A stretch of DNA of 64,000 bases from contig NZ_KK073874.1 of the NCBI RefSeq assembly GCF_000585375.1, forward strand, positions 5,662,067 to 5,726,066, written 5' to 3'. Source of the DNA: Cryptosporangium arvum DSM 44712. Lineage in GTDB: Bacteria > Actinomycetota > Actinomycetes > Mycobacteriales > Cryptosporangiaceae. The position numbers were made by a program, and so were the translations under genes. Below, piece by piece: positions 3 through 38,894 of the stretch. The notes below the pieces were generated by a model. That model did not search any database. It was not told the DNA's origin and saw nothing but the letters and a program-made list of their open reading frames with translations. Every line of letters starts with the position of its first letter. The first letter of the stretch is position 1.

Positions 3-362
3 TGCACGCTGTTGACTCCGGCCGACGTCAACGGGATCACCAGGCGGGAGATCACCCGGATCGACCGGTCGCGGTCGACCGAGGGCCTCGACCGGTTCTG
101 CCGGTGGGAACTCGAGCAGGGTGTGCTCACCGTGTTCATCTCGGCGACGTCCGCCGACGACTTCGAGAAGCGGGAGCCCGGCTCGCAGGACATCGACGGG
201 CTCAGCGACGCGGCGTACCGGACCCCGTCGGGGCACCTGTTCGTCCGGGAGCTCAACGTCTACGTCGACGTCTACACGACCGCCGCCAACGGTGGCGCGG
301 CCAGTTCCCAGAACATCGCGATCGGTGAACTCGTCGCGGAGAAGATCTTCAGTCAGTTCTGA
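3..362 (+). CDS. DUF3558-like lipoprotein, C-terminal part (5' end outside window)
   Basis: The reading frame is open from the left edge. It begins CTLLTPADV, which resembles the conserved 'C-x-LLT-P-x-x-V' start of the mature domain in DUF3558 lipoproteins of actinomycetes. The signal peptide and lipobox would lie upstream of the window, and about 119 residues remain. The tail (ASSQNIAIGELVAEKI) also resembles the family's end, where a helix follows the beta domain. Family members are surface-exposed lipoproteins of unknown function. A TTG at 12 is probably not the real start. A strong hairpin at 407-436 follows the stop. Confidence 0.6.
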   Translation, partial: CTLLTPADVNGITRREITRIDRSRSTEGLDRFCRWELEQGVLTVFISATSADDFEKREPGSQDIDGLSDAAYRTPSGHLFVRELNVYVDVYTTAANGGAASSQNIAIGELVAEKIFSQF

Positions 363-406
363 TCGCGCCGGCGCGAGGGCACGCGGGCGGCCAGGTCGGT
401 CAGTAC

Positions 407-436
407 ACCGGCGCCTCCGCGCGCGGAGGCGCCGGT
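407..436. terminator. Bidirectional hairpin terminator
   Basis: A perfect 30-bp palindrome with two 15-bp arms (ACCGGCGCCTCCGCG and its complement, meeting at 421/422) lies between the convergent DUF3558 and TetR genes. There is no U-tract, as is common in high-GC actinomycetes. Position and stability suggest it ends transcription from both sides. Confidence 0.75.
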
Positions 437-481
437 CGGTGCCGAACACCACGGCGTCGCCGGCGGAGATCTGCGCGTGGG

Positions 482-1084
482 TCACTGCTCGAGGCGGGCG
501 CGCAGGCCGGCGATCACCGTCTCGACCGCGAAGGTCCAGGCCGCCTCCGGCTGCGCGGTGACGGCGATCGACCGGACGAGCGGGAAGGCGTCGGCCGACA
601 GGTCGTCGAGGCGTGTCTCCAGCGCTTCGCCCCGGGCGTCCTTGCTCTTCTCCCACCCCACCGCGGCGGCGAGCAGCGCGACGGTCTTCACCGCGGCGTA
701 CGCGTCGAGCGTGGAGAAGCCCGCTTGGACGAACGCGGCGATCGCGATCTCGAACGACGCCGTGGCCCGCGATCCCTGAACGGGCCGGTGTTCCACGGCG
801 TGGAACGCGCCGGGGTGGGTGGTGGCGATGTCGGCGATCGCGGCGAAGAAACGCCTCACCCAGTCTTCCCAGGGCACCGGCTGCGTCGGCAGCTTCGCCT
901 CGGCGAGAAGCACCTCGAACATGCCGTCGGTGATCGCGTCGCGGGTGGGCACGTGGTTGTAGAGGGACGTCACGTGCACCCCGAGGTCGGAGCTGATGCG
1001 GCGCAGCGTGACGGCGTCCGCGCCCTCCTCGTCGGCGATGCGGATCGCGGCCCACAGGATCTGGTCACGCGTCAGCGAAGGCAT
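482..1084 (-). CDS. TetR-family transcriptional regulator
   Basis: This 200-residue protein has an N-terminal TetR helix-turn-helix (residues about 5-50; recognition region LGVHVTSLYNHVPTRD). The C-terminal ligand domain is of the TetR class C type, with a conserved helix ending in VGWEKS. It is divergent from the serine hydrolase at 1167. The gap of about 80 bp contains two near-identical 15-bp palindromes over the hydrolase promoter. The simplest inference is that this protein represses both genes until it binds a small ligand, perhaps a substrate of the hydrolase. The ligand cannot be predicted. Confidence 0.9.
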   Translation of the reverse strand: MPSLTRDQILWAAIRIADEEGADAVTLRRISSDLGVHVTSLYNHVPTRDAITDGMFEVLLAEAKLPTQPVPWEDWVRRFFAAIADIATTHPGAFHAVEHRPVQGSRATASFEIAIAAFVQAGFSTLDAYAAVKTVALLAAAVGWEKSKDARGEALETRLDDLSADAFPLVRSIAVTAQPEAAWTFAVETVIAGLRARLEQ

Positions 1085-1105
1085 GCCCGCGATTATCCAC
1101 GCCCC

Positions 1106-1151
1106 TTGACCCAGACCTACAGTGTAGGTACAAACGACCTACACCGTAGGT
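1106..1151 (+). promoter_or_regulatory. Promoter with two TetR operators
   Basis: A -35 box TTGACC (1106-1111), a 17-bp spacer and a -10-like TACAAA (1129-1134) precede the serine hydrolase. Operator 1 is ACCTACAGTGTAGGT (1115-1129; perfect 7-bp arms). Operator 2 is ACCTACACCGTAGGT (1137-1151; one arm mismatch). They are 22 bp apart, two helical turns, so two dimers could bind the same DNA face across spacer and start site. Repression by steric block is inferred. Confidence 0.8.
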
Positions 1152-1166
1152 AAGGGAGTGTGGGAC

Positions 1167-2555
1167 ATGGGTCCGGACGAGCTCGCGACGAAACTGACCG
1201 AGCTGATCGACCGGCACGGGATACCCGGGGCGCAGCTCGCCGTCCTCGACGGCGACACGATCACCGAGGTCGCCGCCGGCGTGCTGAGCCTGCGAACGGG
1301 CGCCCGGGCCGGCACCGACGCCCTGTTCCTGCCCGGGTCGATCGGCAAGCTGTACACAGCGTCCCTGGTGCTGATGCTCGTCGACGAGGGGCTGGTGGAA
1401 CTGGACGCCCCGGTTCGGCGGTACCTCACCGATTTCCAGGTCGCCGACAAGGACGCGCGGGACACCGTGACGATCCGCAACCTGTTAAGCCACACCAGCG
1501 GCTTCGACGGAGACGTCTTCCTCGACACCGGCCGCGGCGACGACGCCCTGCGGCGCTACATCGACCGGATCGCCGATCTTCCGCAGATCTGCCCGCCCGG
1601 CACGCTCTGGAGCTACAGCAACAGCGGGTACGCGATCCTCGGCCGCGTGGTCGAGGTGATCATCGGCGTCCCGTTCGAGGAAGCCCTGCGCACCCGTCTG
1701 TTCGAGCCGCTCGGCCTGCGGCACACGGTCGCCTTTCCCGAGGACGCGATCCTGCACCCGGTCGCCGTCGGACACGTTCCCGACCCGGACGATCCCTCGT
1801 CGCTGACGGTGAGCACGACCTGGGGGTTGTTCCGGTCCTGCGGCCCGATGGGGGCGTCGATCGTGGCCAGCGCGGGCGACGTGCTGGAGTTCGTCCGCCT
1901 GCACCTGCGCGGCGGCGTGGCGGCCGACGGCACCCGGCTGCTGTCCGCCGACGCGGTCGCCGGCATGCAGGCCCGGCAGATCGACCTCGTCGACGACACC
2001 GTCCTGGGCGACGGGTGGGGCCTCGGCTGGATCCTGGACCGGTGGGGCGAGGTCGGGGTCATCGGTCACGACGGCAACTCGATCGGCCAGAACGCGTTCC
2101 TGCGGGTCGCCCCCGACCAGCGGTTCGGGTTCTGCCTGCAGACGAACGTGGAGAGCGCCCTGGGCCTCTACCGGGAGCTGGCCGCGTGGCTGTTCGGCGA
2201 ACGACTCGGCGTCGGCCCCCGGCCCGACCCCGGACAACTCCGCTCCTCCGCCGTCGCCGACCCGGCCCGGTACGTCGGGACGTACGAACGCGCGGGCTTC
2301 CGCGTGGAGGTGGCCGAGGCCGAGGAGTCGAGTCTGGTCGCCTCGTTCGTCCCGACCCGCACCGGGCCGGACGTGGAGGCCCTGCCGCCGATGGTCGACC
2401 TGCCGCTGAAGCCGACCACCCGCGAGGACGGTTTCCTGCTGAAACTTCCGATCGCCGACGCCGCGCTGCTGGCGGCCTTCTTCAACCCCGATCAACCGGA
2501 CGGCCGACCGACCTACGTGCACTTCGGTGGCCGCGCCCACCGGCGCACCGACTGA
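1167..2555 (+). CDS. Serine hydrolase, class C beta-lactamase / esterase family
   Basis: This is a penicillin-binding-protein-like serine hydrolase (Pfam Beta-lactamase) of about 462 residues. The S-x-x-K nucleophile motif is SIGK in LPGSIGKLYTA, the tyrosine motif is YSNSGYA, and a C-terminal HDG (GHDGNS) stands for the KTG-like triad. After about residue 360 a beta-rich tail resembles the lipocalin-like domain of these esterases. No signal peptide is seen, so it is probably cytosolic. ATG 1167 is preferred over GTG 1158 because AGGGAG at 1153-1158 sits 8 bp before the ATG. The divergent TetR probably controls it. The substrate is unknown; esterase or D-aminopeptidase activity is as likely as lactamase. 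Confidence 0.88.
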   Translation: MGPDELATKLTELIDRHGIPGAQLAVLDGDTITEVAAGVLSLRTGARAGTDALFLPGSIGKLYTASLVLMLVDEGLVELDAPVRRYLTDFQVADKDARDTVTIRNLLSHTSGFDGDVFLDTGRGDDALRRYIDRIADLPQICPPGTLWSYSNSGYAILGRVVEVIIGVPFEEALRTRLFEPLGLRHTVAFPEDAILHPVAVGHVPDPDDPSSLTVSTTWGLFRSCGPMGASIVASAGDVLEFVRLHLRGGVAADGTRLLSADAVAGMQARQIDLVDDTVLGDGWGLGWILDRWGEVGVIGHDGNSIGQNAFLRVAPDQRFGFCLQTNVESALGLYRELAAWLFGERLGVGPRPDPGQLRSSAVADPARYVGTYERAGFRVEVAEAEESSLVASFVPTRTGPDVEALPPMVDLPLKPTTREDGFLLKLPIADAALLAAFFNPDQPDGRPTYVHFGGRAHRRTD

Positions 2556-2584
2556 ACGGTGCTCGCCGCTGCACGCCGGGGCGG

Positions 2585-2938
2585 TCACAGGTCGTCCCAG
2601 TCGTGCGGCTCCCGGTAGACGTGCCAGCCGTGGAAGAACCAGGCGGCCAGGTCCTGCAGACGAGTCACGCACGCGTCGTAGTAGTCCACCGGTTCGGGCC
2701 GCGGGAACGCGCTGTGCGCGGTGTGGTCGGGGACCCAGGTCGAGACGTAGTAGAAGCCTTCGGCCAGCCACCGATCCAGCTGGTCCCGGTCGGCGTGGGC
2801 GGCACAGACCGTGCGCATCGCCCGTTCCATCCGGCCGAACGCCTCGCGGTCCCAGACCCGGTCCGCGTACAGCGTCGCCATGAACGAGCCCGGCGCGGAT
2901 CCGAACTCGCGCCGCAGCGTTTCGCGCGCATCGTTCAC
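2585..2938 (-). CDS. Conserved hypothetical protein
   Basis: 117 residues from a GTG start. It is soluble and rich in aromatic residues and His/Asp (FYYVSTWVPDHT; WFFHGWHVYREPHDWDD). There are no membrane segments, and I recognise no domain. It is convergent with the serine hydrolase and 28 bp from the end of the reductase-like gene on the same strand, so they may be co-transcribed. The function is unknown. Confidence 0.6.
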   Translation of the reverse strand: MNDARETLRREFGSAPGSFMATLYADRVWDREAFGRMERAMRTVCAAHADRDQLDRWLAEGFYYVSTWVPDHTAHSAFPRPEPVDYYDACVTRLQDLAAWFFHGWHVYREPHDWDDL

Positions 2939-2965
2939 CCCGCGATCGTGCCAGGCCGGGCCGCG

Positions 2966-3562
2966 TCAGGGTGCGGACGGGACCGCCGAGCGGGGGTCGA
3001 CGCCGGAGAAGGCCAGCCCGATGACGAAGCCCGCGACCTCTTCCAGCTGGCGCGCACGAGCGAGGCCGCCCAGCACGACCGGCGCACCTCCGACGTCGGT
3101 GACGAGCGTTCCGACGACGGACAGGGCGCGCTGATCGTCACCGCACATCACGACGGTCACCGTGCTGTCGCGGGGGTCGGTCCACACGCCGGACGGGAAG
3201 AGGTGGAACGCCTTCACGACGTGCGCACCCGGCACCGTCGCGGCGATGTGTTCGGCCGGTGACGCGTGGAGGACGCCGACGCCGTGGTCGACCGCGTTCG
3301 TCGGATCGATCAGCGGCACACCGTCGAGCGGCCCGGCCGCACGCAGCATGTCCGGGACACCGCTCCAGGAGACCGCGAGCAGAACCGCGTCAGCGTCGGC
3401 GGCCACGTCCGGCACCGGGCGGACGTGGCCGCCGACCGTGTCGGCGAGTGCGGTGGCCTTGTCCGGCGACCGCCCACCGACGGTGATGTGATGCCCGGCG
3501 CGCGACCAGCCGGTCGCGAGAGCCGTCGCGAGGGAACCAGTTCCGAGAATTCCGATCCGCAT
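2966..3562 (-). CDS. NADPH-dependent F420 reductase-like / NAD(P)-binding oxidoreductase
   Basis: 198 residues starting MRIGILGTGSLATALA, a Rossmann fingerprint GxGxxA in the style of the F420H2:NADP oxidoreductase family (COG2085). It continues with VTVGGRSPDKA for NADPH phosphate recognition, an LLAVSW strand-turn, and AFHLFPSGVW where family members read 'KAFN'. It probably reduces or oxidises a cofactor or small metabolite with NADP. A longer frame exists upstream, but ATG 3562 is where family homology begins. It is divergent from an HxlR-type relic, which suggests the regulator once controlled it. Confidence 0.8.
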   Translation of the reverse strand: MRIGILGTGSLATALATGWSRAGHHITVGGRSPDKATALADTVGGHVRPVPDVAADADAVLLAVSWSGVPDMLRAAGPLDGVPLIDPTNAVDHGVGVLHASPAEHIAATVPGAHVVKAFHLFPSGVWTDPRDSTVTVVMCGDDQRALSVVGTLVTDVGGAPVVLGGLARARQLEEVAGFVIGLAFSGVDPRSAVPSAP

Positions 3563-7656: not shown

Positions 7657-8154
7657 TCACACCACGTGATCGGCCAGGTCGAAGGTCGCGTCGCACCCGG
7701 GGCAGGTCACCTGCCCGAAGAGGTGGGTCAGCGTGGTGGCCACCGCGTCGTGTCCGGCGCTCACGGCCTCGTCGTGGAGCCGGACGGCCAGCGGGCTGCT
7801 CAGACCGGGCGTGATCAGCGGGTTGTCCGACGTCAGCTCGAGGAGCAGTTCGTCGTCGCACTCCGGGAACACCGCGTCGGCCCCGCCGTCGTTGACGCGG
7901 TCCAACGACCTCCCCCAGACCTCGTCACCGTCGAAGCCGAGCACGGCTTGGCGCAGATACACCCAGGTGGTCCCGGACGGGGCTCCGGAAAGGCCTTCGC
8001 GGAAACCGGCGCTGGTCCGGGCCAGCCAGGGCAGCAGCGCCGGGCTGCCGGGGGTGCACGTTCCCTGGCGGCAGGATTCGCCCCAGATGCGTGACCAGGC
8101 GGGCGACTCGGGGTCGGCGGTCGCGGCGTCGAGATCGTGCGCGTCGATCGTCAC
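7657..8154 (-). CDS. Conserved hypothetical protein with CPGC motif
   Basis: 165 residues from a GTG start, acidic and soluble. Near the C-terminus GQVTCPGCDATFDL has a CxxC pair like a small zinc ribbon half. Another Cys pair occurs early (ESCRQGTC). It may bind zinc, but no domain is recognised. It is divergent from the Nudix gene with a 44-bp gap. Confidence 0.55.
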   Translation of the reverse strand: MTIDAHDLDAATADPESPAWSRIWGESCRQGTCTPGSPALLPWLARTSAGFREGLSGAPSGTTWVYLRQAVLGFDGDEVWGRSLDRVNDGGADAVFPECDDELLLELTSDNPLITPGLSSPLAVRLHDEAVSAGHDAVATTLTHLFGQVTCPGCDATFDLADHVV

Positions 8155-8198
8155 GGACCGGATGATGTCAGGCCCGTGCGGCGGCTAGCGTCGGGCAC

Positions 8199-8678
8199 AT
8201 GGTTCCGGACTACACCGCGACGCTTCCGGCCAAGCGCAGCGCGGCGGCCGTGCTGTTCACCGACGGGGACGGGCGGGTGTTGCTGGTCGAACCCACCTAC
8301 AAACCGGACTGGGAGATCCCCGGCGGCACGGTCGAGCGGAACGAGTCCCCGCGCGCGGCGGCGGCGCGCGAGATCGAGGAGGAGCTCGGGCTGCGCGTCG
8401 CACCGGGCCGGTTGCTGGTCGTGGACTGGGTACCGCCCCGGGGAACCCGCACCGAGGGGTTGATGTTCGTCTTCGCCGGTGAGTTCCCCGGCGACGCCGT
8501 GGTCCGCCTGCCGCCCGACGAGCTGCGGTCGTGGGCGTGGTGCGGCCCGGACGAGGTCGACACCCGGATGGCACCGCAGTTGGCCCGGCGGGTGCGGGCC
8601 GCGTCCCGGGCGCTCGCGACCGGCCACACCCTCTACCTCGAGTTCGGCGAGACTGAACCCGACGTACAGAAACGCTGA
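8199..8678 (+). CDS. Nudix hydrolase
   Basis: 159 residues. A full Nudix box begins GGTVERNESP and ends REIEEELGL, with all catalytic Glu residues (GX5EX7REUXEEXGU) in place. The fold's WEIPGG approach and a C-terminal WAWCGPDEV are typical of the ADP-ribose / NTP-cleaving group. The substrate is a nucleoside diphosphate linked to another moiety, not further predictable. Confidence 0.9.
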   Translation: MVPDYTATLPAKRSAAAVLFTDGDGRVLLVEPTYKPDWEIPGGTVERNESPRAAAAREIEEELGLRVAPGRLLVVDWVPPRGTRTEGLMFVFAGEFPGDAVVRLPPDELRSWAWCGPDEVDTRMAPQLARRVRAASRALATGHTLYLEFGETEPDVQKR

Positions 8679-8719
8679 CTACCCCCGACGACGGCTCCGC
8701 GGCGATGATCACGGCCATG

Positions 8720-9394
8720 GACGCACAGCAGTTCCGCGCGGAGTTCGACGCCCGGGTGGAGTTCTCCAACGGTGGACACCTGGCGGTCGCGGGGTTCCGC
8801 GTCGACGTGCCGTCCGCGGACGTCTCCGCGGACCAGGTCGCGACGCTGTTCGTCCGCTCGCTCGGGCTGCTGATGAGCGAACACGTCGACGTCACCGCGC
8901 TGCGCGTCCTGGCCGAGGCGCACAAGGGCACGCGCGGCGGGCCGTCGGCCCCGAACCCGGCGACGCCCGCGGACGAGCGGCGGCTGGTCGACCTGAGCAC
9001 CGCGGGTACGACGATCACCGGCGGCGCGCTCGCTCTCGACCGCGTCGCCGACCTCCCCGCGGTCGTGGTCCGCACGCTCGGCGCCGGTGCCCGGGCCGTC
9101 GGGGTCGGGTCGCTCGCGCCGTTCGACGTCGGCGGCCGGGCCGTCCTGTTCCACACCGGCGAGGAGAACCCGCACCTCACCGCGGACGGGGCCCGGTGGC
9201 TGGCCGATCACGACGCCGCGCTCGTCGGCCTCGACGGGGCCGCGCCCCCGGTGCTGCTCGCCACCGGCCTGCCGGTCGTCGAACACCTGACCGGTCTGGA
9301 CCGGCTACCGCCGCACGGCGCCCGGTTCACCGCGGCCCCGCCGCGGCTCACCGGCGTCGGGAACACCCCGGTCCGCGCCTTCGCCGCCGTGTGA
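8720..9394 (+). CDS. Cyclase-family (kynurenine-formamidase fold) protein lacking the metal site
   Basis: About 224 residues from ATG 8720 (ATG 8705 is also in frame). The C-terminal two thirds follow the 'cyclase' fold (PF04199): VDLSTAGTTI, AVLFHTG, then HLTADGARWLADHDAALVGLD. The metal-binding HxGTHxD segment that follows the first strand in active formamidases is absent; the equivalent region reads TTITGGALALDRVADLP. An unrecognised 70-residue N-terminal part precedes it. It is likely a non-hydrolytic relative or has a divergent active site. Its 3' end overlaps the convergent GGDEF gene by 90 bp. Confidence 0.7.
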   Translation, partial: DAQQFRAEFDARVEFSNGGHLAVAGFRVDVPSADVSADQVATLFVRSLGLLMSEHVDVTALRVLAEAHKGTRGGPSAPNPATPADERRLVDLSTAGTTITGGALALDRVADLPAVVVRTLGAGARAVGVGSLAPFDVGGRAVLFHTGEENPHLTADGARWLADHDAALVGLDGAAPPVLLATGLPVVEHLTGLDRLPPHGARFTAAPPRLTGVGNTPVRAFAAV

Positions 9395-10981
9395 CCCCGG
9401 CTCCGGAGCCGCCGGCGACCCGGGCCCCGACGAGCCGTGCGGCGCCGTGGCCCGCACCACCCGGTTGCGCCCCTCGCTCTTCGCCCGGTACATCGCCTCG
9501 TCCGCGGACGCGGTCAGCACGGTGGCGTCGATCGTCTCGCGGGCCGAGGCCACGCCGAGCGAGCCGGTGATCCAGAGCGGGTCGCCGCTGGGCAGCGCCA
9601 CCGGGTGCGACGCCAGCGTCCCGCGCAGGCGCTCGGCCATCGCGGCGGCGCCCTCCTCGTCGGTGTCGGGCAGCAGCCAGACGAACTCCTCGCCGCCGTA
9701 GCGGGCGACGACGTCGGAGTCTCGGGTGATGACCTGCAGCAGCGTCCCGACCTGGACGAGCGCGGCGTCGCCGGCGGGGTGGCCGTGCCGGTCGTTGATC
9801 TGCTTGAAGTGGTCCAGGTCGAGCACCACGAGGCTCAGCGGCCGCTTGTTGCGCCGGGCCCGCACCACCTCGGTGGCCAGCGACTGCTCGAAGTACCGCC
9901 GGTTCGACAACCCGGTCAGCGGGTCGGTGATCGCCAGCCGCTGCTGCTCGGCGAGCGCCTCGGCCAGCTGGTCGGCCAGCCGTGTCCGGTCGCGCACCAC
10001 CAGCGCCAGCCGGGTGAGCAGGCCGATCACCACCAGGCCGGCGACCAGCAGCGGAACCTGCACGCCGGTGGTCTTGGCGTCGACGAGCACCAGGCCGATC
10101 ACCGCGGCGCCGGCCGCGACCAGCGACGGCAGCATCGTCACGTCGCGGCCGACCGGGAAGTGGACGCCTTCGGACTCCGGGGAACGGATCGCGGTCAGCG
10201 CGCCGAGCGCCAGGAGCACGACCGGGGCCTGGTAGGCGCTGGCGAGCACCGGGTCGGCCGGGTCGAACCGCCCGCTGATCCCGGCGACGAGCGTCAGGCA
10301 CCCGCAGGCCGCGGCGACGACGTGCGCCCAGCCGACGAGCGTCAGCGACGCGGGCAACCGCCGTCCGCCGAAGACGCCCATCGGCACCAGGAACAGCACC
10401 GTGGCCAGCCCGCAGATCGGGTACACGATCGCGGTCGTGCGGTCGGAGGCGACCGCGGGGTCCAGCCCCGCGTCCAGGAACAGGCGCCAGCCCAGCGCAC
10501 CCGCGCCCGCCGCGACCAGCACGAGGTCGAAGCCGAGCCAGAACCGCCCGGAGCGGTGGTCGGGGTGGAGCGCGGCGAGGAAGCCGACGATCGCGACGGC
10601 CGCCGCCGCGACGAAGAACGCGTCCGCGATCGGCGCGAACCCCTTCCATGCCGCCCAGCCACCCGCGGCGAGCGCCGTCGACAAGGCGAACAGCAGCCAG
10701 ATCCGGCCGGTCCCCTGGCGCACGCGGCGGCCCCGGGCGGCGGTGAGCATCAGCCCGAAGGTCACGAGGAGGACGACCGACGCGAGGGCGTCCGCGAGCG
10801 AGCGCAGGGCCGGCCCGCCGAACGCGGCGAGAAGCGCGTGGACGACGACGAACGCGGCGCCGAGCGCCACCGCGAGGGCCAGGACGCGGTCGCCGCGGAT
10901 CACGTCCAGCGCCGTCAGCCGTCTGGCGGCGGCCACACCGCCGTTCGCGACCTCTCGTGGTCCCCGCATGCTCACATCCAT
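9305..10981 (-). CDS. Membrane GGDEF protein (diguanylate cyclase)
   Basis: About 558 residues. The N-terminal half has around eight to ten transmembrane helices, with no recognised periplasmic sensor. The GGDEF domain reads YGGEEF (residues about 429-433) with DPLTGLSNRRYFE at its start. An RxxD (RDSD) lies exactly five residues before GGEEF, the allosteric inhibitory site for c-di-GMP. The active site and I-site are intact, so it should make c-di-GMP from two GTP with product feedback. The start is ATG 10981 or 10969; a longer frame upstream lacks hydrophobic or family character. Confidence 0.87.
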   Translation of the reverse strand: MDVSMRGPREVANGGVAAARRLTALDVIRGDRVLALAVALGAAFVVVHALLAAFGGPALRSLADALASVVLLVTFGLMLTAARGRRVRQGTGRIWLLFALSTALAAGGWAAWKGFAPIADAFFVAAAAVAIVGFLAALHPDHRSGRFWLGFDLVLVAAGAGALGWRLFLDAGLDPAVASDRTTAIVYPICGLATVLFLVPMGVFGGRRLPASLTLVGWAHVVAAACGCLTLVAGISGRFDPADPVLASAYQAPVVLLALGALTAIRSPESEGVHFPVGRDVTMLPSLVAAGAAVIGLVLVDAKTTGVQVPLLVAGLVVIGLLTRLALVVRDRTRLADQLAEALAEQQRLAITDPLTGLSNRRYFEQSLATEVVRARRNKRPLSLVVLDLDHFKQINDRHGHPAGDAALVQVGTLLQVITRDSDVVARYGGEEFVWLLPDTDEEGAAAMAERLRGTLASHPVALPSGDPLWITGSLGVASARETIDATVLTASADEAMYRAKSEGRNRVVRATAPHGSSGPGSPAAPEPGSHGGEGADRGVPDAGEPRRGRGEPGAVRR

Positions 10982-32114: not shown

Positions 32115-32757
32115 TCAGTCCTCGATCAGCGCCAGCTGCTCGCTGATCTCCCCCGGGTTGGAGTCCCCGGCCACCTTCTGCAGGAACGGCGTGCGGTCGA
32201 ACACGACGTCGCGGAGCGGCCGCAGCGGCGCCGGCACGTGATGGAAGACCTTGCCGAGCATCCAGGCCTGCTGCAGCGCCCGGCCGACCGCTGCTTCGGC
32301 GGTACCCGGTCACGCAGCACCCAGCGCTGCACGTGGGCCGGGTCGGTGGCCGCGATCAGCCCCGGTAACGGCGCCGGGAATCCGCCGGCCAGCGCCGCGG
32401 CGAGCCGGTGCGGATCCGGCGGCGGCGATGCGGCGGGGTCGGTCGCGATGAGCACCCACCACTGGTGTCCGCCGGGATCGAGGTCCAGCTGCCCTGCACG
32501 GTGGGGCCGTGGGTGAGCACGCACGAGTTCGGCGTGGTGCCCGCCACCTCGGCGTAGGTGTACCCGCCGACGATGTGCCGCCGGTGCTCGCGCTTCGGCG
32601 AGTCGCCCCAGAGCGTGCGCCGGACGAGGCAGTCGATGCCGTCGGCACCGATCAGTACGTCGTGTTCGGCGGTGGTCCCGTCCGCGAAGTGCACCTGTCC
32701 GAGCGCGGCTACGAGGTCCGGCGCCGGGGATCGCGCTACAGCCAGGGCCTCGGCCAC
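32115..32757 (-). pseudogene. FAD-dependent monooxygenase (PheA/TfdB type) relic
   Basis: Three consecutive frames each carry a piece of a PF01494 flavin monooxygenase. The first has VLIGADGIDCLVRRTLWGDSP (about 32715-32490). The second has GGHQWWVLIATDP to HVQRWVLRDR (about 32480-32290). The third has GKVFHHVPAPLRPLRDVVFD to a stop at 32115. The N-terminal GxGxxG domain is gone, and the second FAD motif (GDAAH-type), expected between the last two pieces, is deleted. It cannot make an active enzyme. Confidence 0.8.
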
Positions 32758-32945
32758 GCGTTCGTCGAGCTGCTCGCGCCGCTGGGCCTCTCCGACGCCG
32801 CCGCGTGGGCCTGTTTCGACACCGTCTTCGCCGCCGTGATCCTGCGTGTCGCATCTGGACCGGCTTCGCGACCCCGCATCCGGAGGACGAGGACACGTTC
32901 GTCGCCCGCCTCGGCGACATCGCCGTGCACTACCTGATCAGCTAG
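32690..32945 (+). pseudogene. Unidentified regulator-like relic
   Basis: On the plus strand, RYSQGLGHAFVELLAPLGLSD continues to CFDTVFAAV. Then, after a frame change near 32850, RIWTGFATPHPEDEDTFVAR follows, ending HYLIS with a stop at 32943-32945. Composition and helix pattern look like the C-terminal ligand domain of a TetR-like regulator, but the N-terminus is missing and replaced by antisense monooxygenase sequence. The family assignment is weak. From 32946 to 33100 I see nothing else. Confidence 0.45.
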
Positions 32946-33100
32946 GGTCGCGGGCCACCGGTGGGGTGAGGACGCGCTGACCGGCGACGCGGCACCTGGT
33001 GGGTCCCGCACCGCAGTGCTGAATCGGGTGTTCCAGTGGATTTCCAGTGGCCTGCGGTCTCATCTCAGCCGTGCGGGAACAGCGCGATGAGGAGGTCCCG

Positions 33101-33382
33101 GTGACGACTGACCCGGTACGAGCACGAGCCGTCCGGCAAGTGCGCAGGAAACGCGGTCTGCAGGTGCACGCCCTGTGGTTCGTGCTGGTGACCCTGGTGC
33201 TGATCGTGGTCTGGTTGATCTGGCTGCGGTCGATCTTCTTCTGGCCGCTGACCGGGCTGCTGCCGTGGGCGGCCGGGCTCGCGTTCCACGCCTGGGCGGT
33301 CTACCACCCGTCCGAGCTCGACGACGCCCGCATCGAGCGGGAGATGGACCGGCTGCACCGTCGCCGGCCCGGCCCGGACTGA
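33101..33382 (+). CDS. Small 2TM-domain membrane protein
   Basis: 93 residues from GTG 33101, which has AGGAGG five bases upstream. A basic N-terminus (RAVRQVRRKRGLQVH) precedes two helices (about 26-46 and 49-66). The tail has REMDRLHRR. This matches the small 2TM domain (PF13239) often attached to sensor kinases, here free-standing. It ends 2 bp before the flavoprotein fusion, so it is co-transcribed and might tether that enzyme or its lipid substrate at the membrane. Confidence 0.75.
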   Translation: MTTDPVRARAVRQVRRKRGLQVHALWFVLVTLVLIVVWLIWLRSIFFWPLTGLLPWAAGLAFHAWAVYHPSELDDARIEREMDRLHRRRPGPD

Positions 33383-33384
33383 CC

Positions 33385-35859
33385 GTGGAGAGATACGACG
33401 CCGTCGTGATCGGGTCGGGCCTCGGCGGGCTGGCCGCGGCCCGGGCGCTCGCGCAGTTCGGCTCCGCCCGGGTGCTCGTCCTGGAACAGCACTACACGCT
33501 GGGCGGGATGACCCACGAGTTCTCCCGCGACGGGCGCTTCGAGTTCCCGACCGGAATGCACTACCTGGGCGCGGGCTCCGAGCCGTTCCTGGCGTTCCTC
33601 ACCGACGGGAGGGCCCAGTTCGCGCCGCTGCCGGACGAATTCGAGGTACTGCACTTCGAGGACTTCGAGTTCTCGGTCCCGGCGTCCGGAGAGCGGTTCC
33701 GGGCCCGGCTGAAGGAACGGTTCCCGCGCGAGGCCGGCAACGTCGACCGCTTCTTCACGTCGGTCGCCCGGGCCCGGACCGGTCTGGCCGCCCGCAACGT
33801 GTTCTCCTCGTTCCCGGCGGCGGTCCGCCGGCTCGGGTTCCCGCTCGTCGAACGGCTCTACCCGGCCACTTACCGCACGCTCCAGGACGAGCTGGCGCGC
33901 CACTTCCGCGACCCCGGGATCCGCGCGGTGCTGGCGGCACGCTGGGAGCTGTACGGCACCCCGCCCGACCGGGGCGCGTTCGGCTACCACGCCAGCGTGC
34001 CGATGACCTACTACCTCAACGGCGGCACCCACCCCGTCGGCGGTCCGAAGCAGATCAGCGGGCTGATCATCGAGAGCCTCGAACGGCGCGGTGTGCTGCT
34101 CCGGGCCCGCCAGCGGGTCACCCGGATCCTGACCGAGCGCGGCCGGGCGGCCGGGGTCGAGGTCGAGGACCGCACCACCGGCGACCGGTACGAGGTGCGG
34201 ACGCCGACCGTCGTCTCGGCGATCGGCGTGCGCAACACGTACGCGCTGCTCGGCGCCGAGGTTCCCGCGCTACCGGCGGAGAAGTCCACGCTCATGCTGT
34301 TCGCCGGCTTGAACACGTCGCCGGCGGCGTTCGGTCTGCGCGGCGAGAACCACTGGTTCATCGGGGACGACTCGCTCTACGTCTCGTTCGCGTCGCTCAA
34401 CGACCCCGCGGCCCGCTTCCACACCGTCGAGATCCTGCAGCTGATCGATGCCGACCAGGTCGACGCCTGGCGCGGCACCACCGCGGACACCCGCCCGGCG
34501 GCGTACCGGACGTTCAAGGACGACACCGTACGCCGGCTGATCGGGCGGCTGGACGCACGCTGGCCCGGCTTCGCCGACACCGTCGTGTCCACCGAGCTCG
34601 CCACGCCGCTCTCGTTCGAGACCTACCAGCGCAGCCCGCGCGGGGCGTTCTACGGGCTGTCGGCCACCCCCGAACGCCTCCGCTCGAAGGTCGCCGGCTG
34701 CCGGACACCGGTCAAGGGCGTCGTCGTGGCCGGCCAGGACGCCTGGAACGCCGGTGTGGTCGCGGCCGCGGCCGGTGGCTTCATGGCGGCGAACGCGGTC
34801 CTGAAGCCCCGGCAGGTCGGGGCGCTGTGGCGGGCGATCCGGACTCCGGAGACCGTCACGCCGTGGCGCGGCTACCTGCGGGTGAGCCGGATCGAGCCGT
34901 TGACCCCCACGGTCCGGCGCATCCGCCTCGCTCCCCTGGACGGCGACACGCTGCCGTTCGCGTTCACCGCCGGGCAGTACGTCACGGCCGGACTGCCGGT
35001 CGCGGTGGAGCCGATCGAGCGCTCGTACTCGATCTCGAGCCGCCCCGGCGAGCGGCGTCACCTCGAGATCACGGTGAAACACGAACCGCGGGGGCTCGGC
35101 TCGACGTTCCTGCACGAGGAGCTGGCGACCGGGTTCGCGCTGGCGGTGAGCGGCCCGCACGGCGAGTTCACCTACGCGCCGACGCCCGGCGGCCTGCTGC
35201 TGATCGCCGGTGGCGTCGGCATCACGCCGTTGCTGAGCATGCTGGCCGCGGCCGCCGACGACGGGCACACCGGCCCGATCGTGCTGCTGGCGAGCTTCCG
35301 CAGCGACGAGGAGGTCCTCTTCCGCGAGGAGATCGCGGAACTGCGCCTCCCGGGTCTGCGGGTGTTCCGCTACGGCGCCGGGCACGGCCGGATCGACCGG
35401 GACGCGCTGGAACCGCACGTCGCCGGGGCCTCGCGCGTGCACCTCTGCGGGCCGCCGTCGATGATGCAGGACGTCCTGGACCTGCTCACGACGCTCGGCG
35501 TGCCGCGCGAGGCGATCCGCACCGAGGCGTTCGTGTCCGGACGCAGCGCGCTCACCCGGCGGGAACGCGCCCACGCGATCGCGCTCGCGGCCACGGTGGA
35601 GCGGTTCACGATCACCGCTGACGACGGCGAGTTCCCGTGCCGGCCGGGGCAGACGGTCCTCGACGCCGCGAACGCCGCGCACGTCCCGTTCCCGCAGTCC
35701 TGCGGCGAGGGTGCCTGCGGGACCTGCCGCGTACGGGTGATCTCCGGTTCCTACGAGACCGACACCCGCGGGCTGTTCACCACCGCCGAGCTGGACGCCG
35801 GCTGGCGGCTGGCCTGCCAGACCCTTCCCACCGAGAACCTCCGGATCGGAGCACGATGA
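33385..35859 (+). CDS. CrtI/RetSat-like FAD oxidoreductase fused to ferredoxin reductase and [2Fe-2S] ferredoxin
   Basis: 824 residues in one frame from GTG 33385. Residues 1-475 are a phytoene-desaturase / retinol-saturase-type flavoprotein: VVIGSGLGGLAAARALA, the GGMTHEFSRDGRFEFPTGMHYL substrate side, and a C-terminal FAD closure (GVVVAGQDAWNAGVVAAAAGG). Residues about 494-735 are a ferredoxin-NADP reductase module with FAD motif RSYSIS (545-550) and NADP loop IAGGVGITPLLSML. Residues about 740-824 are a plant-type ferredoxin with Cys 773, 778, 781 (CGEGACGTC) and 811. Electrons could run NADPH to FAD to Fe-S to the saturase flavin. This is an inferred self-sufficient polyene or isoprenoid reductase. 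It is coupled by ATGA to an alpha/beta hydrolase. Confidence 0.88.
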   Translation: MERYDAVVIGSGLGGLAAARALAQFGSARVLVLEQHYTLGGMTHEFSRDGRFEFPTGMHYLGAGSEPFLAFLTDGRAQFAPLPDEFEVLHFEDFEFSVPASGERFRARLKERFPREAGNVDRFFTSVARARTGLAARNVFSSFPAAVRRLGFPLVERLYPATYRTLQDELARHFRDPGIRAVLAARWELYGTPPDRGAFGYHASVPMTYYLNGGTHPVGGPKQISGLIIESLERRGVLLRARQRVTRILTERGRAAGVEVEDRTTGDRYEVRTPTVVSAIGVRNTYALLGAEVPALPAEKSTLMLFAGLNTSPAAFGLRGENHWFIGDDSLYVSFASLNDPAARFHTVEILQLIDADQVDAWRGTTADTRPAAYRTFKDDTVRRLIGRLDARWPGFADTVVSTELATPLSFETYQRSPRGAFYGLSATPERLRSKVAGCRTPVKGVVVAGQDAWNAGVVAAAAGGFMAANAVLKPRQVGALWRAIRTPETVTPWRGYLRVSRIEPLTPTVRRIRLAPLDGDTLPFAFTAGQYVTAGLPVAVEPIERSYSISSRPGERRHLEITVKHEPRGLGSTFLHEELATGFALAVSGPHGEFTYAPTPGGLLLIAGGVGITPLLSMLAAAADDGHTGPIVLLASFRSDEEVLFREEIAELRLPGLRVFRYGAGHGRIDRDALEPHVAGASRVHLCGPPSMMQDVLDLLTTLGVPREAIRTEAFVSGRSALTRRERAHAIALAATVERFTITADDGEFPCRPGQTVLDAANAAHVPFPQSCGEGACGTCRVRVISGSYETDTRGLFTTAELDAGWRLACQTLPTENLRIGAR

Positions 35860-36539
35860 GCATCACGAACGTTGTCCTCGTCCACGGCGCCTGGGTCGAC
35901 GGATCCGGGTGGCGCGCCGTCCACGACCTGCTCATCGCCGACGGCTTCGCGGTGAGCGTCGTGCAGAACCCCACCGTGACGCTCGCCGACGACGCGGCCG
36001 CCGTCCGGCGGGTGCTCGACCGGCAGAGCGGCCCGACGGTCCTGGTCGGACACTCCTACGGCGGCGCGGTGATCACCGAGGCCGGCACCCACGACCGGGT
36101 CGCGGCCCTCGTCTACGTCGCGGCGTTCGCGCCGGACAAGGGCGAGTCGGTCACCAGCCTGATTCCCGAGCCGCCGCCCGGCACGCCGGTGCCGCCGATC
36201 CTGCCGCCCGACGACGGGTTCCTGCTGCTCGACCGGGACAAGTTCCCGGCGGCGTTCGCCGCCGACCTGCCGGACGCCGACGCCCGCTTCCTGGCCGCGT
36301 CGCAGACGCCCTGGGGGCTGGGCGCGATCGGGGGCGTGATCACCGAGGCGGCGTGGCGCAGCCGGCCGAGCCGGTACCTGCTCACGACCGAGGACCGGAT
36401 GATCCCGCCGTCCGGTCAGCGGGCGATGGCCGGCCGGATCGGGGCCGCGGTGACCGAGGTGGCGGCCAGCCACGCGGTCTACGTCTCGCGTCCGGAGAGC
36501 GTCGCCGCGCTGATCAGGGCCGCCGCCGACGACGCGTGA
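35856..36539 (+). CDS. Alpha/beta hydrolase
   Basis: 227 residues, a short esterase-type fold: oxyanion HGAWVDGSGW, nucleophile GHSYGGAVI, and His near the end in SHAVYVSRPE. It resembles the EstC / salicylate-esterase-like group of actinobacteria. The start overlaps the stop of the large fusion (ATGA), so the two are made together. The enzyme may release or modify the product or substrate of the fusion, for example an ester of an isoprenoid or fatty acid. Confidence 0.87.
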   Translation: MSITNVVLVHGAWVDGSGWRAVHDLLIADGFAVSVVQNPTVTLADDAAAVRRVLDRQSGPTVLVGHSYGGAVITEAGTHDRVAALVYVAAFAPDKGESVTSLIPEPPPGTPVPPILPPDDGFLLLDRDKFPAAFAADLPDADARFLAASQTPWGLGAIGGVITEAAWRSRPSRYLLTTEDRMIPPSGQRAMAGRIGAAVTEVAASHAVYVSRPESVAALIRAAADDA

Positions 36540-36636: not shown

Positions 36637-37359
36637 ATGGAACCCGTCTTTCTCCGCGCGGCGGGCCATCCCCTGCGCTGGCGGCTGCTCGGGGAGCTCG
36701 CCGGCAGCGACCGGCGGGTGCAGGAGCTGACCGCGCGCGTCGGGCACCCGCAGAACCTGGTGTCCTACCACCTCGGCCGGCTCCGCAAAGCCGGCGTCGT
36801 CCGGTCCCGGCGCAGCACCGCCGACGGCCGGGACACCTTCTACCGCCTCGATCTGGCCCGCTGTGCGGAGCTGCTGGCCGCGACCGGGGCGGCGCTGCAC
36901 CCCGGGCTGCGGCCGGCCGCGGCGGCGCCTCCGGGCACCGTGCGCGGCCGGGTGCTGTTCCTCTGCACCAGCAACAGCGGCCGCTCGCAGCTGGCCGAGG
37001 CCCTGCTGCGCCACCGTTCCGGCGGTGCGGTCGACGTCGTCAGCGCGGGCAGCTCCCCGAAGCCGGTGTCCGCGCACACCTTCGCCGTGCTCGCCGGGTA
37101 CGGCATCGACCTGACCGCCGCGCGCGCCAAGCACCTGGACGAGTTCCGCGACCGGCGCTTCGACCACGTCATCAGCCTGTGCGACCGGGTGCGGGAGGTC
37201 TGCCCGGAGTTCCCCGGCCACCCGGACGTCGTCCACTGGAGCCTGCCGGATCCGGGGCGCGAACCCGACGGCCGGGCCGCCTACGCCCGGGCCGCCGCCG
37301 AACTGGACGAACGCATCGGCTTCCTGCTGCACACCCTCGCCACCGGAGGCACCTCGTGA
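36637..37359 (+). CDS. ArsR regulator fused to ArsC (low-MW phosphatase-type arsenate reductase)
   Basis: 240 residues. Residues 1-85 form an ArsR winged helix (RVQELTARVGHPQNLVSYHLGRLRKAGVV). Residues about 103-240 form the arsenate-reductase / LMW-PTP fold with P-loop LFLCTSNSGRSQLAEALL, ISLCDRVREVC and WSLPDP. The P-loop Cys and a second Cys pair suggest a thioredoxin- or mycothiol-type relay. The fusion ties sensing to detoxification. The operator at 36603 lies just upstream. The stop overlaps the VOC start by 4 bp. Confidence 0.88.
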   Translation: MEPVFLRAAGHPLRWRLLGELAGSDRRVQELTARVGHPQNLVSYHLGRLRKAGVVRSRRSTADGRDTFYRLDLARCAELLAATGAALHPGLRPAAAAPPGTVRGRVLFLCTSNSGRSQLAEALLRHRSGGAVDVVSAGSSPKPVSAHTFAVLAGYGIDLTAARAKHLDEFRDRRFDHVISLCDRVREVCPEFPGHPDVVHWSLPDPGREPDGRAAYARAAAELDERIGFLLHTLATGGTS

Positions 37360-37745: not shown

Positions 37746-38894
37746 GTGGTCGATCTCGGCACGGTGCTCAAGGAGTGGGGCCGGATCGGCTGCATCGGCT
37801 TCGGCGGGCCACCCGCGCACATCGCGCTGCTGCGCACGCTCTGTGTCGACGACCGGCGCTGGCTGACGCCGCAGGAGTTCGAGGACGGCGTCGCGGCCTG
37901 CAACCTGCTCCCCGGGCCGGCCTCCACCCAGCTGGCGATCTTCTGCGCCTGGCGCGTCGCGGGCCGGGTCGGGGCACTCGTCGGCGGGGTCGCGTTCATT
38001 CTTCCCGGGCTCGTCGTCATCCTCGGGCTGGCCGCCCTGTTCCTGGCCGGCTCCCCACCGACCTGGGTGAAGGCCGCTGGGGCCGGCGCGGGCGCCGCGA
38101 TCGCGGCCGTCGCGGTCCACGCCGGCGTCGGGCTCGCACCGGCCGGATGGAACCGCGCCACCGCCGACGGCGGCCGGGTGCGCTGGTGCGCCTACGTCCT
38201 GGCCGGCGTGGCCGCGGCGGCGCTGCTCGGGCCGTGGCTGGTCGTGGTGCTGCTGGCCTGCGGCGTCGTCGAGGTGCTCCGGCGGCGGCTCCCGGCTCCC
38301 CGGTCCGACCGTCCACTGCCCACGGTGCCGCTGCTGGCCGCGGTCGGCACCGTGGGCTCGGGGGTGCTGCTCCCGCTCGCCTGGGTCGCGATCAAGGTCG
38401 GCGCGCTCTCCTACGGCGGCGGGTTCGTCATCATCCCGCTGATGCGTGCCGACGCCGTCGACCACTACGGCTGGATGACGAACGCCGAGTTCCTCAACGC
38501 GGTCACCCTCGGTCAGATCACGCCCGGGCCGGTCGTCCAGACGGTCGCCGTCGTCGGGTACGCCGCCGCCGGGCTCGGCGGGGGCATCCTCGCGTCGATC
38601 GTCGCGTTCAGCCCGTCGTTCACGGTCGTCCTGCTCGGCGCCGACCGCTTCGACCGGCTCCGGGCCGACGTCCGCGTCCGTGCGTTCCTCGACGGTTCGG
38701 GGCCGGCCGCGATCGGCGCGATCCTCGGCTCCGCGATCCCGCTGGCGCTGGCGCTGAGCGAGTGGTGGCAGCTCGCGGTGCTGGCCGCCGCCGCGGTGAC
38801 GCTCTTCGCGCTGCGGCGCGGGGTGGTGCCGACCCTGCTCGGCGCAGCCGCGGCCGGAGTGGTCCTGGTGCGGATCGGCGCGCCGCTCCCCTAG
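37746..38894 (+). CDS. ChrA-type chromate transporter
   Basis: 382 residues, two CHR domains. The first opens with GRIGCIGFGGPPAHIALL and CNLLPGPASTQLAIF, the second with IKVGALSYGGGFVIIPLM and VTLGQITPGPVVQTVAVVGY. About ten transmembrane helices are predicted. It exports chromate (or sulphate-like oxyanions) driven by the membrane potential. GTG 37746 begins directly after the VOC stop. It is the third gene of the ArsR-controlled unit. Confidence 0.9.
   Translation: MVDLGTVLKEWGRIGCIGFGGPPAHIALLRTLCVDDRRWLTPQEFEDGVAACNLLPGPASTQLAIFCAWRVAGRVGALVGGVAFILPGLVVILGLAALFLAGSPPTWVKAAGAGAGAAIAAVAVHAGVGLAPAGWNRATADGGRVRWCAYVLAGVAAAALLGPWLVVVLLACGVVEVLRRRLPAPRSDRPLPTVPLLAAVGTVGSGVLLPLAWVAIKVGALSYGGGFVIIPLMRADAVDHYGWMTNAEFLNAVTLGQITPGPVVQTVAVVGYAAAGLGGGILASIVAFSPSFTVVLLGADRFDRLRADVRVRAFLDGSGPAAIGAILGSAIPLALALSEWWQLAVLAAAAVTLFALRRGVVPTLLGAAAAGVVLVRIGAPLP

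Follow-up and report, generated by a model that had tools for sequence, protein, structure and literature searches.

A putative self-sufficient RetSat-type flavoenzyme with built-in reductase and ferredoxin units in Cryptosporangium arvum

Introduction

What would a saturase-like flavoprotein do with a reductase and a ferredoxin joined to it, and could a single polypeptide then run from NAD(P)H to its substrate? This question is raised by a gene in the window, a 64,000-nucleotide stretch of the Cryptosporangium arvum DSM 44712 genome (contig NZ_KK073874.1, positions 5,662,067 to 5,726,066; G+C content of the window 72.6%). The gene encodes, in one chain, an N-terminal flavoprotein unit related to retinol saturase (RetSat), an FNR-like reductase and a [2Fe-2S] ferredoxin. 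Sequence comparison established the parts, their order (catalytic unit, reductase, ferredoxin), their conservation and the RetSat-type residues. We propose that the fusion belongs to the RetSat-like branch of the CrtI superfamily and would act as a self-sufficient flavoenzyme that saturates an isoprenoid or polyene lipid, a reading to which we give an even chance of being right.

Results

One open frame joins three conserved units

The fusion gene is a single frame on the plus strand, from a GTG at 33385 to a TGA at 35857-35859, and has no internal stop (Table 1). Its N-terminal part scored above the curated Pfam cut-offs for NAD_binding_8 and FAD_binding_2, as an amine oxidase/CrtI-kind Rossmann unit. 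The remainder scored above the cut-offs for FAD_binding_6 at residues 499-597 (45.3 bits), NAD_binding_1 at 606-697 (48.6 bits) and Fer2 at 746-816 (66.3 bits), the domain set of the PaaE/phthalate-reductase class. The host assembly is one 9.2 Mb contig carrying one full-length copy of the fusion, so that a contig-edge artefact can be dismissed. A frameshift or assembly artefact was also rejected, because the frame is open in four assemblies.

We aligned the window chain with the three other three-part chains that we found. Gly10, Gly12, Gly15 and Glu34, Arg546, Tyr548 and Ser549, Cys688-Gly689-Pro690, and Cys773, Cys778, Cys781 and Cys811 were identical in all four. The same chain occurs in the sibling species G002 (80% identity to the window), in G616, a genome of another family (62-65%), and in Actinosynnema pretiosum DSM 44132 (58%), and its ratios of nonsynonymous to synonymous substitution rates (dN/dS) are below 1, showing that the fusion is not a chance joining. 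Between the window and its sibling, dN/dS was 0.33 for the whole chain, 0.26 for the flavoprotein, 0.55 for the FNR unit and 0.60 for the ferredoxin, and between the window and G616 it was 0.45 for the whole chain; these values, computed for two pairs, are rough and weakly resolved in GC-rich DNA. An earlier note, made from the DNA letters alone, had described an in-frame fusion of three modules with the four ferredoxin cysteines at these same positions. That description was borne out by the frame, the Pfam matches, the cofactor motifs and the recurrence of one chain in four genomes; by sequence the CrtI part does carry an FAD motif, and the nearest relatives do carry the modules fused.

Table 1. 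Coordinates of the fusion gene, its units and motifs, and the two adjoining genes (window positions)
Feature	Position	Strand	Basis
2TM-domain membrane protein, 93 aa	33101..33382	+	PF13239 52.6 bits, cut-off 24.8
RetSat-FNR-ferredoxin fusion, 824 aa	33385..35859	+	Open frame, Pfam and motif conservation
RetSat/CrtI-superfamily flavoprotein unit, residues 1-475	33385..34809	+	Pfam NAD_binding_8, FAD_binding_2, Amino_oxidase
GxGxxG dinucleotide-binding motif, residues 10-15	33412..33429	+	Translation and alignment
GGMTHEF...GMHYLG loop, residues 40-62, with His44 and His59	33502..33570	+	Alignment
FNR-like flavin/NAD(P) reductase unit, residues 495-720	34867..35544	+	FAD_binding_6 and NAD_binding_1 over cut-off; PDB sequence matches
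[2Fe-2S] ferredoxin unit, residues 743-824, with Cys773, 778, 781, 811	35611..35856	+	Fer2 66.3 bits, cut-off 21
Alpha/beta hydrolase, 227 aa	35856..36539	+	Abhydrolase_6 90.7 bits, cut-off 26.3; GHSYGG in translation

The flavoprotein unit is of the RetSat type

To place the flavoprotein unit, we compared it with curated family models. Its best NCBIfam match was the carotenoid isomerase model TIGR02730, at a sub-threshold 106.2 bits against a cut-off of 586.9; the cyanobacterial row L086, taken as a control, scored 963.9 bits. The CrtI phytoene desaturase model TIGR02734 gave 76.2 bits against a cut-off of 238.1. The loop that follows the dinucleotide motif reads GGMTHEFSRDGRFEFPTGMHYLG, and the window thus has both the N-terminal dinucleotide motif and the GG-x-T-H-x-F...G-x-H-Y-x-G loop by which we delimited the RetSat-type branch. 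Human RetSat has a GG-x-x-H-x-F...G-x-H-Y-x-G loop, and we accordingly take the loop as a RetSat marker. In the flavoprotein alignment, His44 is conserved in 67 of the 86 rows and His59 in 81, the window included. Both histidines are missing from the CrtH clade, whose four rows are all cyanobacterial; L086 was assigned to it by NCBIfam and the other three by the tree. These comparisons support a catalytic unit of the RetSat rather than the CRTISO type. In a fold comparison of the predicted model, the best matches for this unit among solved structures were 4rep (gamma-carotenoid desaturase), 4dgk (phytoene desaturase) and 3ka7 (an oxidoreductase), followed by amine oxidases.

The covalent-flavin motif G-F-L/R-X-N/S-T/L-H-A is absent, the window reading GGMTHEF at residues 40-46. 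That a flavin might be bound covalently at His44 is a guess by analogy, given a Thr-His pair near a similar place without the CtmAB/delta24 motif. The three coupled genes also hold one CrtI-like unit and not the two flavoprotein subunits of the limonene dehydrogenase/delta24-sterol desaturase type, and a partner elsewhere in the genome is possible. The host's one phytoene-synthase-like (SQS_PSY) match lies at 6951155, about 1.25 Mb from the fusion, with two other CrtI-like matches within about 8 kb. We rejected the identity of a carotenoid-cluster desaturase on this distance and on the NCBIfam scores below the cut-offs. A phytoene-synthase-like gene is present in all four genomes of the genus, and the fusion in only two. 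Two hosts of chains without the ferredoxin (see below), G237 and Schaalia, were covered by this test, and neither has an SQS_PSY match; a carotenoid of the cell's own is therefore an unlikely substrate in those two.

The reductase-ferredoxin half resembles that of CYP116B

The best matches of the reductase-ferredoxin half were PaaE (151 bits), the PRK10684 NADH oxidoreductase, GbcB, BenC and CYP116B46, whose modules pass electrons taken from NAD(P)H on to a partner that does the catalysis. It is not PaaE proper, since residues 494-824 gave 156.0 bits on NCBIfam TIGR02160 against a cut-off of 420.8. The PDB sequence matches of the reductase unit were 1krh, 7ylr and 6laa, the last being CYP116B46, of which residues 511-766 align with 544-812 of the fusion. 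Arg639, which lies past the strand of nucleotide contact in FNR-type enzymes, is conserved in all four three-part chains; we take it to be at most a weak hint to NADPH. Like the fusion, both CYP116B46 and CYP116B234 are single chains in which a flavin reductase and then a [2Fe-2S] ferredoxin follow the catalytic unit, which is a P450 in them and a RetSat-type flavoprotein in the fusion. For CYP116B234, the published report describes a P450 followed by a reductase that holds FMN and a [2Fe-2S] ferredoxin (PMC11889516).

The predicted model of the whole chain reached a mean predicted local distance difference test score (pLDDT) of 83.6 and a predicted template modelling score of 0.76. The flavoprotein was mostly at pLDDT 84-98, the FNR unit was fair and the ferredoxin poor.

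The three-part chain is rare

We then examined how widely the fusion is distributed. A search of 200 relatives with the whole protein (E 1e-60) gave a whole-chain match in two, the window's own genome and the sibling G002; a second search, of 397 genomes from the order (E 1e-45), gave one in three, the host, G002 and G616. The three-part fusion is thus rare in the order. When genome contigs were scanned with a flavoprotein-unit profile, at least 149 candidates were confirmed, and 80 of them, from many phyla, were kept. These contained one more three-part chain, that of A. pretiosum (L014), which belongs to a different species from G616, because the two chains are 56% identical to each other. 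They also contained two RetSat-FNR chains without a ferredoxin, in Schaalia odontolytica (L024) and in a metagenome-assembled genome (MAG) of Spirochaetes (L032), whose FNR units went undetected by BLAST and were recognised by reading and Pfam. Among these bacterial RetSat relatives, 3 of the 80 loci are therefore fused to an FNR unit and 71 stop less than 60 residues past the matched unit, unlike the fusion with its built-in reductase and ferredoxin; four more are cut by a contig end, and L013 and L083 continue without an FNR match. In a sample of the phylum, the flavoprotein unit was found at E 1e-40 in 3 of 396 genomes: that of the window, G237, where it forms part of a two-part chain, and G519, where it stands unfused. 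The two-part chains of Schaalia and G237 lie at L024:5812-8280 and L012:112-2394. As a separate observation, the L013 frame of a Richelia sp. MAG (293-3520, plus strand, 1076 aa) runs from a RetSat-like part into a carboxylesterase-like part, as a real fusion or a MAG artefact.

The flanks of the unfused RetSat loci, searched with fusion-built profiles that are narrow and would miss other kinds of reductase (45 of the 80 loci have about 6 kb on both sides), held no ferredoxin and one marginal FNR-like frame of 22 bits.

The four three-part rows grouped together in the 86-row flavoprotein tree (Shimodaira-Hasegawa-like approximate likelihood ratio support, SH-aLRT, 100), and the three two-part rows made up a clade of their own (99). 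These two clades sat within a 16-row clade (99) together with unfused cyanobacterial, Acidobacteriota, Nitrospinota and other rows, and a careful tree of 35 of the 86 rows agreed. Forcing the seven fused rows together was not rejected by the approximately unbiased (AU) test (p-AU 0.204). A 14-row FNR tree also placed the three-part and two-part FNR units apart, and joining them was again not rejected (p-AU 0.125); beyond these chains this tree contains only seven paralogues from the host, was built with a simple model, and carries six unsupported forks and a long-branch warning. From these trees, two separate fusion events for the three-part and two-part chains are favoured, not shown.

A 2TM gene accompanies the fusion more widely than the hydrolase does

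The stop of the 2TM gene ends 2 bp ahead of the GTG of the fusion, and the start of the hydrolase gene overlaps the fusion stop as ATGA, just as the earlier note had given the spacing. An alternative in-frame GTG start of the 2TM gene lies at 33047. The 2TM protein is the host's only PF13239 match at E 0.001. In G002 the 2TM gene is also upstream of the fusion, and in G616 the two genes are divergent neighbours (L107:7490-7771 on the minus strand, fusion 7889-10453 on the plus strand), with a 2TM product 51% identical to that of the window. The 2TM gene is thus near the fusion in three of the four three-part genomes, once divergently, the exception being A. pretiosum. Within the genus, the protein was found at E 1e-5 in the two genomes with the fusion and not in the two without it, which hold weaker PF13239 matches. 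At E 0.001, PF13239 matched in 53 of the 397 genomes sampled from the order, and in all three genomes with the fusion a 2TM gene lies beside or near it. We inspected about 1.5 kb to either side of the best 20 2TM loci of the order: three, all of them fusion loci, had a CrtI-like match there, and 17 had none. A search for 2TM genes among plasmids gave nothing useful.

We also observed that the stretches L053:4774-8297 and L059:2987-6138 each hold an unfused alphaproteobacterial RetSat gene together with a 2TM gene and, next to the latter, a gene for a saccharopine-dehydrogenase-like NADP-binding protein, in two different arrangements. In either genome, nothing else matches PF13239 at E 0.001.

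The hydrolase is above the Abhydrolase_6 cut-off and carries the GHSYGG nucleophile elbow. Its neighbour counterpart in G002 is 87% identical, and BLAST at E 0.01 found no match to it in the G616 and A. pretiosum loci. It is one of nine similar genes of the host at E 1e-30. Close paralogues elsewhere in the host genome lie at G000:C1:2391106-2391774 (79%) and 3788011-3788679 (74%). By these comparisons, the hydrolase is an addition of the window's genus and not a conserved partner. A three-gene set as a widely conserved pathway was rejected, as G616 and A. pretiosum have no hydrolase beside the fusion.

The earlier note had read the three genes as a reduce-and-hydrolyse pathway. Its RetSat-type in-frame fusion stands, and of its two neighbours the 2TM gene, near the fusion in three of four genomes, is the more convincing. 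The NADPH donor, the pair of FADs and the saturating direction that it named are inferences. The hydrolase as a pathway partner found no support: it adjoins the fusion in two species of the genus only and has the similar host genes noted above.

Further observations concern the flanking genes. Just upstream of the operon, window positions 32126-32940 on the minus strand hold what seem to be decayed pieces of a flavoprotein monooxygenase spread over three frames; the two that were scanned against Pfam gave no match. Downstream, 36637-37359 (plus strand) encodes an ArsR/MarR-type helix-turn-helix fused to a low-molecular-weight phosphatase domain, followed at 37746 by a gene that reads as chromate-transporter-like.

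Discussion

The proposed saturase would work as follows. NADH or NADPH would deliver a hydride to the reductase flavin (FMN or FAD), which would release single electrons through the [2Fe-2S] cluster to the RetSat flavin. The reduced RetSat flavin would then add hydrogen across one of the double bonds in an isoprenoid or polyene lipid of the membrane, to which the small 2TM protein, whose gene stays close to the fusion in two families, may anchor the chain. That the fusion is the RetSat counterpart of CYP116B, with the full chain from NAD(P)H to the RetSat flavin in one protein docked at the membrane by a dedicated 2TM partner, is more tentative, and we put it somewhat short of even. The two-part chains of Schaalia, G237 and the Spirochaetes MAG show this type of flavoprotein joined to a reductase in other lineages. 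A precedent for isoprenoid saturases drawing on ferredoxin is the archaeal geranylgeranyl reductase of M. acetivorans, which uses the ferredoxin of its own locus (PMC10821996).

Several points weigh against this proposal. The ferredoxin is missing from the two-part fusions and is therefore dispensable in the family at large. Residues 717-738 (the hinge) and 774-824 (the ferredoxin) were modelled at pLDDT below 50, so that no cluster-to-flavin distance could be obtained. In the sibling G002, an extra gene absent from the window, small and methyltransferase-like (L009:917-1498, plus strand; Pfam scores under the cut-off), stands between the 2TM gene and the fusion, and in A. pretiosum a PF13239 search at E 0.001 gave no hit. 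On the profile of the fusion-linked 2TM proteins, the 17 other 2TM proteins inspected from the order outscore those of L053 and L059; because the order's other 2TM proteins resemble that of the window more, the alphaproteobacterial association is perhaps separate or due to chance. Finally, the closest studied system with these three kinds of part, the ctm cluster of Castellaniella defragrans, encodes them separately and works in the oxidative direction (PMC4109377), and CRTI is capable of redox-neutral isomerisation when its FAD is reduced (PMC3382138).

The last of these points leads to the best surviving alternative, a redox-neutral enzyme in which the reductase and ferredoxin would merely keep the RetSat flavin reduced and the double bond would be isomerised or hydrated. 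Prolycopene is isomerised by CRTI with reduced FAD, and CRTISO requires reduced FAD (PMC3382138); a putative phytoene desaturase of M. acetivorans was found to be responsible for hydroxyarchaeols (PMC10821996). Carotenoid isomerase is also the best NCBIfam match of the unit; however, its 106 bits are far below both the cut-off and the 964 bits of L086, and the CrtH-clade rows lack His44 and His59. Moreover, a catalytic reduced flavin would hardly require a built-in stoichiometric electron chain. We consider a redox-neutral reaction unlikely.

In an oxidative enzyme, the RetSat-type unit would dehydrogenate or hydroxylate the allylic position of a terpenoid or lipid, and the ferredoxin and FNR units would pass the electrons to NAD(P)+, making the fusion a one-chain counterpart of the limonene dehydrogenase system CtmAB-CtmE-CtmF. 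The Castellaniella work gives this some substance, with one cluster holding ctmA, ctmB (phytoene-dehydrogenase-like), ctmE ([2Fe-2S] ferredoxin) and ctmF (NADH:ferredoxin oxidoreductase), and mutants in ctmA, B and E not growing on limonene (PMC4109377). Yet CtmAB and the delta24-sterol desaturase are two-subunit enzymes with a common covalent-flavin motif, and in the latter the flavin is covalently bound at the His of that motif (PMC11061730), whereas the window has one unit and GGMTHEF. The ctm system thus resembles the fusion in its phytoene-dehydrogenase-like flavoprotein, [2Fe-2S] ferredoxin, reductase and, for Ctm, an isoprenoid substrate, and differs in its separate genes, two flavoprotein subunits, covalent-flavin motif and oxidative reaction. 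The electron chain itself points the other way, as a reductase of the PaaE kind normally runs from NAD(P)H. We judge the oxidative direction unlikely as well.

It is very improbable that the joint is irrelevant to catalysis, the FNR-ferredoxin half serving another acceptor and the RetSat unit using other electrons or none: FNR-ferredoxin modules are common and attach to a variety of partners (there are 1422 matching plasmid records, and a PNPOx-family annotation stands on 3 of the 12 listed), but the window and the three nearest relatives of its RetSat unit are all one chain with every checked cofactor residue kept, and the RetSat-FNR chain is also found in other lineages.

Set beside known systems, the proposed saturase shares its CrtI-superfamily fold with RetSat and the bacterial RetSat relatives. 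It shares the superfamily with CRTISO/CrtH as well, from which it differs in His44 and His59, absent from the CrtH-clade rows. The M. acetivorans geranylgeranyl reductase belongs to a different flavoprotein family. Fused electron-transfer proteins of alkane monooxygenase are reportedly the topic of one published paper (PMC8918992). Among the papers listed by word searches of open-licence PMC, none concerned a RetSat-FNR-ferredoxin fusion, and there was nothing useful on bacterial RetSat, RetSat electron donors, saturase flavoproteins or PF13239. Viral contigs and the neighbourhoods of four plasmid relatives (one record unannotated) likewise yielded nothing useful. As described in PMC10821996, the M. 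acetivorans enzyme is a ferredoxin-fed flavin saturase of isoprenoids that has its ferredoxin as a separate gene. Each module and, through CYP116B, the modular principle are already known; within our searches, what appears new is the combination, its presence in more than one family and the 2TM protein linked to it.

Many bacterial phyla have RetSat-type flavoproteins, and the neighbourhoods of the unfused ones, searched with narrow profiles, name no electron donor. A natural fusion names the likely donor chain, and it makes direction, cofactor use and substrate testable in one purified protein. It may also serve as a template for coupling a saturase to NAD(P)H. If the proposal is true, a self-sufficient saturase would show, in an assayable form, an electron route for RetSat-type enzymes.

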